Assembly: GCA_021811155.1 (NCBI GenBank)
Contig: JAJZPO010000025.1
Location: 1-34,937 of the forward strand
Length of the DNA stretch: 34,937 nt
Source of the DNA: Bacillota bacterium
GTDB lineage: Bacteria; Bacillota; Desulfitobacteriia; Desulfitobacteriales; JAJXUE01
Direction: 5' to 3'
Positions 1 through 21,582 of this stretch are shown one piece after another. Within the stretch, counting starts at the first letter, position 1, and every line of letters starts with the position of its first letter. The position numbers and the translations under genes were made by a program. The notes under the pieces were generated by a model, which did no database searches, was not told the DNA's origin, and saw only the letters and a program-made list of their open reading frames with translations.

Positions 1-43
1 AGAGGCGTTAAGAAGTTTTGCATGTTGAAGTTTGCCGCGGCAT

Positions 44-120
44 CAGATAACAAAGTATTCCCAACACTTGCCAAGATGAAAGCGGTTGGGACGCGTCGGG
101 AATACTTGATACGTTATCTG
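44..120. repeat. Hairpin repeat, copy 1 (attC-like)
   Basis: This is the first of three related long imperfect palindromes. The outer arms are CAGATAAC (44-51) and GTTATCTG (113-120). The inner arms are AGTATTCCC (54-62) and GGGAATACT (98-106). The loop shares segments around ACACTTG, GATG and GACGC with the other copies. The pairing may extend outward (GGCAT near 40, ATGCC after 120). The outer arms end in AAC and begin with GTT, as in integron attC sites, but the boxes do not match the attC consensus fully. It stands 97 bases before the CGGC gene. Confidence 0.8.
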
Positions 121-217
121 CAATGCCTAGGCCAATAATTTGTTTGTGCATGAAACATTTGTAGCGGGGGCTTCATTGGTGAGTATTTTAGGTTCTCAAA
201 AGGGAGAGTGAGGTATA

Positions 218-646
218 ATGAGAATTGGCATTTTGACTTGTTCTTCGGCAACCCAGGACTTAGGTTGTTCCTCGGTAAGTTGTTTACATGATTTAAGGAA
301 AAGAAAGGGTGCATTTGACAAATATCCTGCCGATGAGAAGATAGATCTTATTGGAATTATTAATTGCTCAGGTTGTCCAACTTTAGCAGGGCCGGAAAAG
401 TTATTGAGTCGGATTCGAGCATTAGTAGAATTTAGAATTGATGCCATTCACTTTTCATATTGTATAGATGCATTGTGTCCATATAAGGGTAAGTATAAGA
501 AATTGTTGGAGGAATATTTTCCCGGCATTGAAATTGTAATAGGTACTCATGAGGCTCATGTGACTCACGAACAGTTTCGAGAGGATGTCAAGGGACTATT
601 TTGCCAGTCAAAACGAACGATGGTAGACTTAATAAAGGGACAATAA
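218..646 (+). CDS. CGGC-type cysteine-rich protein
   Basis: This small soluble protein of 142 residues is predicted to bind a metal or act in redox chemistry; the function of the family is not established. Cysteines lie at residues 8, 17, 22, 50, 53, 82, 87 and 129. The pair at 50/53 sits in a CSGCPT motif, the counterpart of the CGGC signature. No signal peptide or membrane segment is visible. The start ATG has a purine-rich ribosome site (GGGAGAGTGAGG) just upstream. A second, GC-richer gene at 19750-20199 encodes a close paralog in which every one of these cysteines is conserved with a one-residue offset. This copy is flanked by hairpin repeats on both sides, which suggests it was moved as a unit. 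Family assignment rests on motif recognition. Confidence 0.85.
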   Translation: MRIGILTCSSATQDLGCSSVSCLHDLRKRKGAFDKYPADEKIDLIGIINCSGCPTLAGPEKLLSRIRALVEFRIDAIHFSYCIDALCPYKGKYKKLLEEYFPGIEIVIGTHEAHVTHEQFREDVKGLFCQSKRTMVDLIKGQ

Positions 647-712
647 TTTACCATTAAAATAATGGGTTTGCATCGGAACGGGAAAGTGTTTGGGCGGGAT
701 TTGCCGGCACAG

Positions 713-775
713 CAGATAACAAGGCATTCACGACACTTGTAAAGATGAATGCGGTTAGGACGCATCGTGAATGCC
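713..775. repeat. Hairpin repeat, copy 2 (attC-like)
   Basis: The left outer arm CAGATAAC (713-720) matches copies 1 and 3. The inner stem is a perfect 11-base inverted repeat (723-733 with 765-775). Its sequence differs from copy 1, but pairing is kept by paired changes. The right outer arm GTTATCTG is missing here. The repeat begins 66 bases after the CGGC gene. Between this copy and copy 3 (776-937) I see no convincing gene or RNA. Confidence 0.78.
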
Positions 776-937
776 TAAAAAGAGAGCATTTAACTGCTAT
801 AAGAGTTGTGGCTTTGTCATTACGAAGGAATTTCCAAAGAGACAATTTTCAGATGGCTCATATCAAGGTATATACGAGATGGCAGTAAACAGGAATCCCT
901 AAGTAATGAGATTGTTTATGCTAGCTCATCGCCACTT

Positions 938-1011
938 CAGATAACAGCGTATTCCCAACACTTGGCCATGATGGCTGCGATCAAGACGCGTCGTGAATAC
1001 GCGGAACGTTA
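938..1011. repeat. Hairpin repeat, copy 3, split by intron
   Basis: The left outer arm CAGATAAC (938-945) is intact. The inner stem is GCGTATTC (947-954) with GAATACGC (995-1002). The right outer arm reads only GTTA (1008-1011) before the sequence changes to the 5' end of a group II intron. By comparison with copy 1, the missing bases TCTG were displaced or lost by the insertion. Confidence 0.78.
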
Positions 1012-1400
1012 GTACGCCAAGATGCTTGGTTCTTCTTACAAGGTGAAAGTCCTTGTTGGGTAAGGCCTAACCAGCCACCCATATCGAGCGATGTGCCGAA
1101 ACTGGTAACAGTTAAGCAAAGTGTACACAGAGAACCATATAGGCCATAGGGGGGACCGTAACCCCCGAAGCAAATTCAGCCCCGTTAATTGGTGTTCGGA
1201 ACCGGACGAAGAGCAGGTGACCATGTGTTTAACGTCACAGAAGTCGATACAAAGGAATCACTAGAGGTGAGATTCCTGAGGACCTGTCGGGGTCAGAGAA
1301 CGTGGCATGTATGGAGAGAAGTATCAGGAACTTGGGAGACCCTGTAGGTTCCGGTAACTGCCGGTAAGCCTGACCAATCGAAGGGGAAATGGAGGTGGGT
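1012..1400 (+). mobile_element. Group II intron, 5' portion (truncated)
   Basis: The segment starts with GTACGCC, close to the usual intron start GTGYGCC. It continues with phrases typical of group II intron domain I, such as GGTGAAAGTCC, CCTAACCAGCC, GAAACTGGTAACAGT, CCGTAACCCCCGAAG and GGAACCGGACGAAGAGCAGG. The region is densely structured and has no plausible protein. No reverse transcriptase/maturase gene and no domain V/VI sequence follow within the next several kilobases. An unrelated gene (amj) begins where an intron-encoded protein would be expected. I read it as a 5' remnant. The class is not determined and the right boundary is approximate. Confidence 0.8.
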
Positions 1401-20199: not shown

Positions 20200-20267
20200 A
20201 TCTTTTGCCTGGGTTTGAAAAGTAGTCCAATCTGGTGTAGAATTAAGGCTGAAAAATTGAACACGCT

Positions 20268-20371
20268 AATCTCCGAGCCCTAAGGTCTAAACCATTGCGG
20301 CATGACCTTCCGGCCGGTCCGGGTACAGGAGGAAACGACTGTGCCTCCACGTAATTTTTGGAAAGGAGATT
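20268..20371 (+). ncRNA. Probable molybdenum cofactor riboswitch
   Basis: The closing stem is AATCTCC (20268-20274) with GGAGATT (20365-20371). Inside lie AAGGTC/GACCTT (20282-20287 with 20304-20309) and GGAGG/CCTCC (20328-20332 with 20344-20348). The TCTCCGAGCC start and the GGAAAGGAG end resemble the Moco RNA motif. It lies upstream of molybdopterin genes, as this riboswitch class does. A covariance-model search was not possible here. Confidence 0.65.
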
Positions 20372-20393
20372 GACAGCAGCGGGCAGTATCTGC

Positions 20394-20453: not shown

Positions 20454-20482
20454 ATATACTCGGCAACTTTTGCCGAGTATAT
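20454..20482 (+). repeat. Hairpin 2 of Moco leader
   Basis: ATATACTCGGCAA (20454-20466) and TTGCCGAGTATAT (20470-20482) form a perfect 13-base stem with a three-base loop. No T-tract follows. Confidence 0.6.
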
Positions 20483-20496
20483 CGAACACGGGCACT

Positions 20497-20534
20497 GAAA
20501 TGCGCGCGCTGAGGAAAAACGAAGCGCGCATTTC
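20497..20534 (+). repeat. Hairpin 3 of Moco leader
   Basis: GAAATGCGCGC (20497-20507) and GCGCGCATTTC (20524-20534) form a perfect 11-base stem with a 16-base loop. It ends 28 bases before the start codon and could influence ribosome access. Confidence 0.6.
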
Positions 20535-20562
20535 TTGTTGCAAAGGGATTGGAGCAAACTGT

Positions 20563-21582
20563 ATGAAAAAAGTTCGCACTGAAGATGCGGTCGGTTCTGT
20601 TCTCTGCCATGACATTACCAGAATTGTTCCTGGCGAGTTTAAGGGGGTACTTTTCAAAAAAGGGCACATAGTGAGGCCGGAGGACGTGCCGGAACTGTTG
20701 AAAGTCGGCAAAGAGCACCTCTACGTCTGGGAACAAAGGGAAGGGCTCCTGCACGAAAACGATGCTGCGTATCGCCTGGCCCAGGCCGTAGCCGGCCCTA
20801 ACATCAAGTTCGGGGATGTGCATGAAGGGAGGATAAACCTCCAGGCCGCCGTGGGCGGGCTCCTGAAAGTGGACAGAAAACTTGTCAGCGAGATCAATTC
20901 CATTGAGCTGATTGTCTTGGCCACCCGGCATAATAACAGTTTGCTGCAGGAGGGAGATGTCCTGTCCGGGACCCGGGTGGTGCCGTTGGTGGTTGAAGAG
21001 GAGCGCGTCAGGGCTGTGGAAGAGATCTGCCGCGGCCGATCAGTGTTGGAGGTTAAACCGCTGCGCAAACTAAAAGTTGGGTTGGTCATCACCGGCAGTG
21101 AAGTGTTCCACGGACGGATAAAAGATGCCTTCGGACCTGTCTTGATTAACAAGTTTGAGACACTGGGTTCAGAAGTTGCCGGGAAGGTGTATGTGCCGGA
21201 CGACTTGGAGCAGATTGCCGCAGCGGTAAAGTCCTGGTTGGAGCAGGGAGTGGACATGATTGCAGTCAGCGGCGGCATGTCCGTTGATCCCGATGACCTG
21301 ACCCCTGGCGCAATCAAGGCTGCAGGTGCGGAAATCGTCGAGTATGGGGCCCCGGTGCTGCCCGGTTCCATGTTTTTGCTGGGATATTTTGGTCCGGTGC
21401 CGGTGGTGGGTTTGCCTGGTTGCGTGATGTACTCCAAAGCTACAGTTTTCGACTTGTTGCTTCCTCGCATCCTGGCAGGAGAACGCATCACCAGGGAGGA
21501 TTTTGTAGAGCTGGGTTACGGGGGACTTTGTCTTGGCTGCTCCGAGTGCAAGTACCCGGTTTGTCCTTTTGGCAAAGCGTAA
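20563..21582 (+). CDS. Molybdopterin-binding protein (MoeA/MogA-like)
   Basis: This 339-residue protein has a C-terminal half with the MoCF/MogA-type molybdopterin-binding fold: VGLVITGSEVFHGRIKDAF, then AVSGGMSVDPDDLTPGAI and VVGLPGCVMYSKATVFD. The N-terminal half is of the kind found in stand-alone molybdopterin-binding proteins of anaerobes and not a full MoeA. The last residues carry four cysteines, C323, C326, C329 and C334, in CLGCSECKYPVC, which could bind a metal or Fe-S cluster. ATG 20563 follows TTGGAG by about nine bases. The long leader with a probable Moco riboswitch suggests control by cofactor level. It is followed by moeA. Confidence 0.85.
   Translation: MKKVRTEDAVGSVLCHDITRIVPGEFKGVLFKKGHIVRPEDVPELLKVGKEHLYVWEQREGLLHENDAAYRLAQAVAGPNIKFGDVHEGRINLQAAVGGLLKVDRKLVSEINSIELIVLATRHNNSLLQEGDVLSGTRVVPLVVEEERVRAVEEICRGRSVLEVKPLRKLKVGLVITGSEVFHGRIKDAFGPVLINKFETLGSEVAGKVYVPDDLEQIAAAVKSWLEQGVDMIAVSGGMSVDPDDLTPGAIKAAGAEIVEYGAPVLPGSMFLLGYFGPVPVVGLPGCVMYSKATVFDLLLPRILAGERITREDFVELGYGGLCLGCSECKYPVCPFGKA

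Follow-up and report, generated by a model that had tools for sequence, protein, structure and literature searches.

Three hairpins at the start of the window

The DNA analysed here, called the window throughout, is a whole stretch of 34,937 nucleotides (G000:C43:1-34937), and its position 1 is also the first base of the contig. Three copies of an attC-like hairpin lie on its plus strand: copy 1 (44..120), which is complete, copy 2 (713..790), in which the 3' outer arm with the GTT box has decayed, and copy 3 (938..1011), which is interrupted by a group II intron. We built a covariance model, R2, from these three copies, and it returned them with E values of 3.9e-26, 3.7e-24 and 1.7e-22, respectively; copy 1 is also supported by DNA folding and covariation. 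In the 3.2 Mb of the genome to which the window belongs, R2 detected exactly three hairpins at E <= 1e-20 (E 4e-26 to 2e-22), and a fourth, weak row was copy 1 itself on the opposite strand. A plain DNA search of the same genome with copy 1 returned copies 1 and 3 together with one chance-like row. The starts of the copies are 669 and 225-226 bp apart, which meets the criterion of a cluster with two or more sites separated by less than 4 kb.

Read directly from the sequence, the arms of copy 1 are CAGATAAC at 44-51 and GTTATCTG at 113-120, and the point of exchange is inferred to lie between G113 and T114. Copy 2 carries AAGAGAGC at the place where GTTATCTG is expected. Copy 3 has the arm CAGATAAC at 938-945 and the core CGTTA at 1007-1011; its 3' arm ends at GTTA (1008-1011), after which the 5' end of the intron follows. 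An earlier interpretation made without database searches (the sequence-only reading) had described outer arms and loop segments shared by the three copies. This holds for the 5' arm CAGATAAC and for an apical segment of about 30 nt, both common to all copies, but not for the outer 3' arm, which is intact in copy 1 only. The inner stems are AAGTATTCCC/GGGAATACTT in copy 1, AGGCATTCACGA/TCGTGAATGCCT in copy 2 and GCGTATTC/GAATACGC in copy 3, and, as had been stated, they vary in sequence yet remain paired; the stem of copy 2, previously given as 11 bases, has 12. The DNA folding z values were -3.8 for the top and -5.7 for the bottom strand of copy 1, and -5.0 and -5.6 for copy 2; copy 3 reached merely -0.8 (top) and -1.4 (bottom). 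Owing to G.T pairs, copies 1 and 3 are better paired on the bottom strand. With regard to recombination of a folded bottom strand, which is itself an inference, the better folding is only suggestive.

Copies 1 and 2 bracket a single gene, as the sequence-only reading had recognised. This cassette gene, at 218..646 on the plus strand, encodes a CGGC-domain protein of 142 aa (PF08821, E 1.4e-22). The gene cassette itself is placed at 114..780 (+), beginning at the GTT core of copy 1 and finishing at the degenerate end of copy 2, by inference from the unit boundaries in related genomes. Copies 2 and 3 are separated by a short stretch, 791..937 (+), that has no recognised gene (the ORF at 806-1012 matched 0 Pfam families) and is inferred to be, probably, the remnant of a cassette. 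Directly 3' of the CGTTA of copy 3 starts the 5' fragment of a group II intron (GTACGCC...) at 1012..1382 (+), which is recognised by RF02005 at 1046-1302 with 107 bits and has lost its reverse-transcriptase part. The genes 3' of the intron fragment, namely amj, a LysE-type exporter gene and a macro-domain gene, look like ordinary chromosome. Elsewhere in the window, a molybdenum cofactor riboswitch at 20259-20384 (+; RF01055, 64 bits) lies directly 5' of a gene of the molybdopterin-synthesis type at 20470-21582.

Arrays of the hairpin site in related genomes

We scanned 198 genomes with R2, scoring the best candidates of each genome, up to 23, and obtained matches (E <= 0.01) in 55 of them. 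The positive genomes comprised 51 of the 73 that belong to the order of the window's genome, that genome included, versus 4 of the 125 outside this order. From 20 array stretches, 339,496 bases in total, we collected 200 R2 rows, of which 8 (opposite-strand doubles, partial or weak rows) were left out and 192 were used. The sites form arrays on one strand, with up to 50 copies spaced by about 0.9 kb and usually one co-oriented gene between neighbouring copies; the largest is that of G011 with 50 sites, and those of G014, G039 and G005a have 27 each. The median spacing was 0.79-0.95 kb in nine of eleven stretches and 1.5 and 2.1 kb in the two others, which are small. The longest ORF lay on the top strand of the hairpin in 147 of the 167 units between sites, and in the units with a single ORF (n=122) the gene started a median of 75.5 bp after one site and stopped a median of 59.5 bp before the next. 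The cassette products are diverse: all 10 that were scanned, out of 147, had a Pfam family, and these families include RibD_C, HicB, HNH, SpoU methylase, beta-lactamase-family hydrolase, GNAT and HD. A scan of seven array stretches for RNA families found only a tRNA.

The anatomy of the site was examined in an alignment of the best 150 of the 200 R2 rows, which is fitted to the model and hence biased towards the structure. In this alignment, 93.0% of the cells were paired, and the cells in which both sides had changed numbered 572, whereas shuffles gave 181 on average and slid controls 40-62. Compensatory changes were seen in 19 of 23 pairs, and the whole structure stood above all shuffles and all slid controls; the inner stem of 15 pairs covaries, with double changes in 14 of them. 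The sequence-only reading had called the hairpins covarying, a claim that was thin with three copies and is strong with 150 sites. It had further held that folding rather than sequence is selected, which is true of the covarying stems but not of the AAC and GTT boxes and the apical segment, all of which are conserved in sequence.

On the bottom strand, the consensus of the site reads TAAC-GTYY-(stem)-...-T-GTTA. The bases of the AAC box were conserved in 150/150 (A), 149/150 (A) and 148/150 (C) sites, the two T of GTT in 150/150, and a G followed the AAC of the bottom R' box in 145 of 149. The central spacer is unpaired and asymmetric, with about 5 nt on one side and 1 nt on the other, and thus meets the criterion of a strand difference, whereas the consensus inner stem, with 15 pairs and no bulge, does not meet the attC criterion of extrahelical bases. 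Compared with what the available part of a description of attC gives (PMC2727003), the site agrees in the cut position within the bottom R' box, in the G that comes next and in the asymmetric spacer, and the extrahelical bases are missing from the consensus stem here. Canonical boxes were rare: among 143 sites (7 of the 150 rows had no readable box and were left out), RYYYAAC occurred in 17, GTTRRRY in 15 and both in only 4, the box here being mostly GTTATNY, in contrast to the GTTRRRY of attC. The conserved apical segment of the hairpins is a further difference from the attC of chromosomal integrons.

Relatives of the group II intron were found in 15 other genomes, which makes 16 of 61 with the window's own. 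In 11 of 11 loci, that of the window and L215-L224, the intron begins right past the CGTTA or TGTTA of a hairpin site and in the orientation of the cassettes, and we therefore conclude that a group II intron lineage targets the hairpin site. Two of these loci have decayed-looking hairpins, and several intron loci have a reverse-transcriptase-like ORF downstream, as judged by eye. The group IIC-attC introns are likewise a group II lineage that inserts beside attC hairpins. However, the introns described here lie on the top strand in cassette orientation, whereas the IIC-attC introns lie opposite to the cassettes, according to the accessible sections of PMC7923331; the IIC-attC criterion, insertion into the attC bottom strand opposite to the cassettes, is thus unmet. 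The same sections also mention integrons with group IIB introns, and one of these introns is co-oriented (PMC7923331).

The recombinase beside the arrays and the attI-like entry site

The genome of the window encodes a tyrosine recombinase of 418 aa at C129:205-1461 (minus), adjoining the end of that contig. The gene is followed by AATAGACGTTATATGA, with an attI-like CGTTAT, and then by the start MKLALIADVHGN of an ORF at the contig end; the stretch after the recombinase and before this ORF start is also quoted as AATAGACGTTATATGACATTGC. Close relatives of this recombinase adjoin arrays in related genomes. The integron criterion of a recombinase adjacent to the array is met in these relatives, and the window's own recombinase is on the separate contig C129. 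We infer that C129, with the recombinase, attI and the first cassette, and C43, with the window, are the two ends of one array that was broken by the assembly. The two contigs are unjoined in the assembly, and the genome itself shows the three hairpins only.

The best 26 recombinase rows in the 198 genomes (E <= 3.4e-115) included 16 with downstream sites in the expected orientation and 7 within 0.7 kb of the array-side contig end; for the remaining 3 (G091, G175 and G065) no site was found. The downstream sites were mostly based on R2, those of G131, G085 and G127 on a loose motif scan alone, and those of G145 mainly on that scan. Recombinases at a contig end were those of G000 (C129), G018 (C318), G023 (C56), G036 (C58), G038 (C5), G060 (C212) and G181 (C137). 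It is as if the arrays broke short-read assemblies; the window too begins within an array. In the eight listed cases in which both share a contig, the recombinase gene and the nearest R2 hairpin are co-oriented (8/8), and the gene points into the array, at a distance of 364-982 bp from the hairpin in seven cases; in G039, which has a further unit inserted there, the distance is 5.6 kb. The recombinase gene of G011 is split into pieces. A protein search for relatives on plasmids or phages returned none above 60% identity.

The hairpins could in principle be a MITE-like repeat, or mere targets of the group II intron and of transposons, since they do mark where introns and transposon-like units end. 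We hold this to be very improbable, because the arrayed sites share one strand and are followed by mostly different genes, because positive genomes follow the order (51/73 versus 4/125), and because one kind of recombinase stands at the head of the arrays.

Two genomes contain a duplicated unit at the recombinase. In G014, a unit of 664 bp occurs twice with 100% identity, and in G031 a unit of 982 bp occurs twice with 99.6% identity. In each genome, one of the two copies is located within the array, where it starts at a hairpin's CGTT core. The other is the first unit past the recombinase; it lacks a preceding hairpin and has just ...CGTTAT in front of it. Sites of the attI and attC kind are arranged in this way, and in these two genomes the attI lies beside the recombinase and shares only the core. 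CGTTA was present 76-114 bp past the recombinase stop codon in 8 of the 16 genomes examined and was not found in the other 8, two of which (G038 and G023) have less than 120 bp left. Among 56 duplicated pairs, 36 of 224 edges fell within 12 bp of a core, versus 1.7% for random places; nested, transposon-like repeats make up much of this list.

These boundaries also bear on the possibility that the hairpin is an RNA element, such as a terminator or a 3' UTR structure, that was spread by duplication. A covarying stem on one strand at gene ends, about 60 bp (median) past the stop codons, is what such an element would look like. However, the units move with CGTT edges, attI has the core and no hairpin, the AAC and GTT are nearly invariant, the strand that folds better is the one opposite to the genes, and no Rfam family matches the hairpin, so that we give an RNA element hardly any credence.

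The arrays, the adjacent recombinase, the attI-like entry site and the duplicated cassettes that start at the core mean that the sequence-only reading, which had proposed an integron-type array in a Firmicute, was right in kind; the co-orientation and the GTT-core boundaries of units likewise support it. Its limits are that the recombinase is not IntI (see below) and that 139 of 143 sites fail the canonical attC consensus. When the covariance model from the three copies, which it had suggested building, was run on the window's own genome and on relatives, copies appeared only at the window in the former and as arrays in the latter. Copies at random places and the absence of an integrase, which would have refuted the proposal, were not what we found.

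Recombinase class and relation to integrons

The array recombinases are not IntI, because they lack the IntI-specific insert. Box I and HxLRH are separated by 92 residues in array recombinases of full length, versus 132-134 in five IntI-type rows, one of which is the Vibrio sp. HDW18 protein annotated as integron integrase. TIGR02249 matched the array recombinases in two pieces and below its cut-off, and no IntI exceeded that cut-off in any of the 61 genomes, the window's own included. In a tree of 72 rows, from which G119 was left out because no ORF passed the filter, the IntI rows formed one clade (100/100). Outside it, with moderate support (83/97), the Firmicutes and Bacteroidota array recombinases grouped with the short class and some others. 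By profile, the best solved relatives were Vibrio IntI4 (185.6 bits) and an archaeal Xer (179.0); by fold, with the predicted model of L083 (pLDDT 82), they were archaeal Xer (Z 23.2), XerA (21.1) and IntI4 (19.9). The aligner covered mainly residues 97-360 of the whole L083 model and is uninformative on the N-terminal domain. NF040815 scored 215.7, 240.1 and 232.7 bits in three array recombinases, with a cut-off of 220. The catalytic family is thus common to XerA/NF040815 and the array recombinases, and the latter differ in their N-terminal HARP-like domain and in the linked cassette arrays.

An ordinary integron, whose IntI and attC have diverged without anything separate having arisen, would place Vibrio IntI4 above the archaeal Xer, as the profile scores do, but it would not leave the array recombinases outside a 100/100 IntI clade, with 92 residues in place of 132-134 and with TIGR02249 below cut-off in 61/61 genomes. 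At the sites, the G after AAC in 145/149 is like that of most attC in the part of PMC2727003 that was available, whereas canonical boxes in 4/143 and a consensus stem without a bulged base are not. The name that NCBIfam gives to the nearest family, 'site-specific tyrosine recombinase/integron integrase', and the incomplete conservation of the insert in the integron-like subgroup of a tyrosine recombinase survey, as far as its accessible text goes (PMC8138268), speak for an ordinary integron as well. On balance, we consider it improbable, without dismissing it. Another possibility is a CALIN, in which a canonical IntI encoded elsewhere moves the cassettes in trans and the neighbouring recombinase is incidental. 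No recombinase was identified among the ORFs of the window, and that of the genome lies on C129, which would fit; but no IntI passes the cut-off in 61 genomes, including this one, and the neighbouring recombinase keeps its place and orientation (8/8), also in Flavobacterium, and we regard a CALIN as very unlikely.

Beyond the Firmicutes, R2 was run on 48 of 80 named loci and matched only one (L086, E 8e-4), which indicates that this model hardly reaches Bacteroidota. A simple, loose motif scan of the 80 loci found 15 sites in the orientation of the recombinase and 1 in the opposite orientation, with no site in most Bacteroidota relatives; an earlier, stricter hairpin scan had found few sites. 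In Flavobacterium enshiense (L086), the recombinase is followed by six co-oriented repeats of the type TAACAGCGGTTT...GGACGTTA, of which the motif scan takes five, and a Chryseobacterium plasmid carries a recombinase of the same type followed by three motif sites. A full-length recombinase of this class is also encoded at L084 6040-7122, in a MAG labelled Undinarchaeales archaeon, a placement that could be due to mis-binning.

Most array recombinases have about 80 extra residues at the N-terminus. The Firmicutes set and the set from the named loci, mostly Bacteroidota, represent one domain (hhalign probability 98.9%, E 2.4e-17). The best Pfam family was HARP (PF07443), which was found in 3 of 12 rows from the named loci (best E 5.6e-7) and in 5 of 10 Firmicutes rows (best 3e-4), one score being 14.3 bits versus a cut-off of 25. 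In a profile search of the PDB, the rows from the named loci matched the HARP domain of SMARCAL1 (4o66) with E 1.6e-5; with the Firmicutes rows alone, HARP was not found among the solved structures. A fold search with the N-terminal domain returned nothing under E 0.2 and only weakly recovered SMARCAL1 HARP, at ranks 3 and 4 (E 1.1-1.3, TM 0.43-0.49). The HARP domain binds forked DNA. In SMARCAL1 it sits on a helicase, whereas the HARP-like domain here sits on a recombinase; a role of this domain in reading the hairpin is our inference. In G039 and G160, the recombinases are beside arrays, but their match to the profile starts only at positions 80 and 93; these two seem to be without the domain, which is thus not universal.

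We conclude that the window very probably represents the distal end of a sedentary cassette array of the integron type, which belongs to a lineage other than that of IntI integrons and has its own recombinase and sites. The system works like an integron, and it is not a canonical member. Alongside the observed features (sites that covary, arrays, co-orientation, an adjacent recombinase, CGTT boundaries and an attI without a hairpin), recombination by the neighbouring recombinase on a folded single-strand substrate remains inferred, no recombination having been observed. In the proposed mechanism, a tyrosine recombinase related to XerA and IntI, mostly fused to the HARP-like domain and encoded upstream so that it points into the array, would join the GTT core of the folded hairpin to the CGTTA of an attI about 76-114 bp past its own gene. 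The substrate would most likely be the bottom strand, as in integrons, and new cassettes would enter first in line, displacing older ones further away.

The recombinase gene with attI beside it and the long one-strand arrays of single-gene cassettes are like those of sedentary chromosomal integrons, as are the AAC/GTT hairpin site, its asymmetric unpaired spacer and the unit boundary at the GTT core. Unlike in chromosomal integrons, the IntI-specific insert is absent, the recombinases form part of a separate clade, and the recombinase gene points into the array. The integrons of Archaea similarly extended integrons to new taxa, but the archaeal IntIs retain the IntI-specific domain in the portion of that report at hand (PMC9668308), unlike the array recombinases here. 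The definition of an integron, as given in the accessible portions of PMC9668308 and PMC2426708, requires an integrase with this additional domain. For complete RefSeq genomes of Firmicutes, the IntegronFinder 2.0 paper reports, in the part available, one complete integron (in Limnochorda) and few CALIN, and calls the near-absence of integrons from this group intriguing (PMC9024848); a survey of 2008, likewise available in part, reports no integron in 103 Firmicutes genomes (PMC2426708). The few CALIN may include the arrays described here. We found no description of these arrays in the open-licence literature, a scope that excludes most subscription papers, preprints and supplements.

Going further, we lean towards the view that these arrays belong to a second class of integrons, in Bacillota and Bacteroidota, which evolved apart from IntI within Xer-like recombinases, in which a HARP-like domain that reads hairpins replaces the IntI insert, and which built arrays of dozens of cassettes. 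If so, present tools miss such arrays because they require the IntI domain. Integrons are the textbook system of gene capture, and the arrays described here, with up to 50 sites, occur in many Firmicutes of a single order. Confirmation would mean that integron-style gene collecting either has two origins or predates IntI and extends beyond it, and that the IntI-specific domain, held to be essential, is replaceable. It would also point to a new structure-reading recombinase and to a large unread pool of cassette genes.

In 80 of 179 cassettes, a short G+C-rich hairpin, for example GGCCGCCGCGTCCTGCGGCGGA, lies soon past the core; its stems vary between copies, and it is possibly a leader or insulating element. 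Units of about 1.7 kb that end at the hairpin core were seen in G039:C1 (L057, L058) and G005:C1 (L053, L054), in G039 as several copies with more than 99% identity. The protein that neighbours them may be IS91-like, and some of these units adjoin a tyrosine recombinase that, at 278-289 aa, is shorter and lacks the N-terminal domain. In L092, the recombinase seems to have two tandem copies of that domain.
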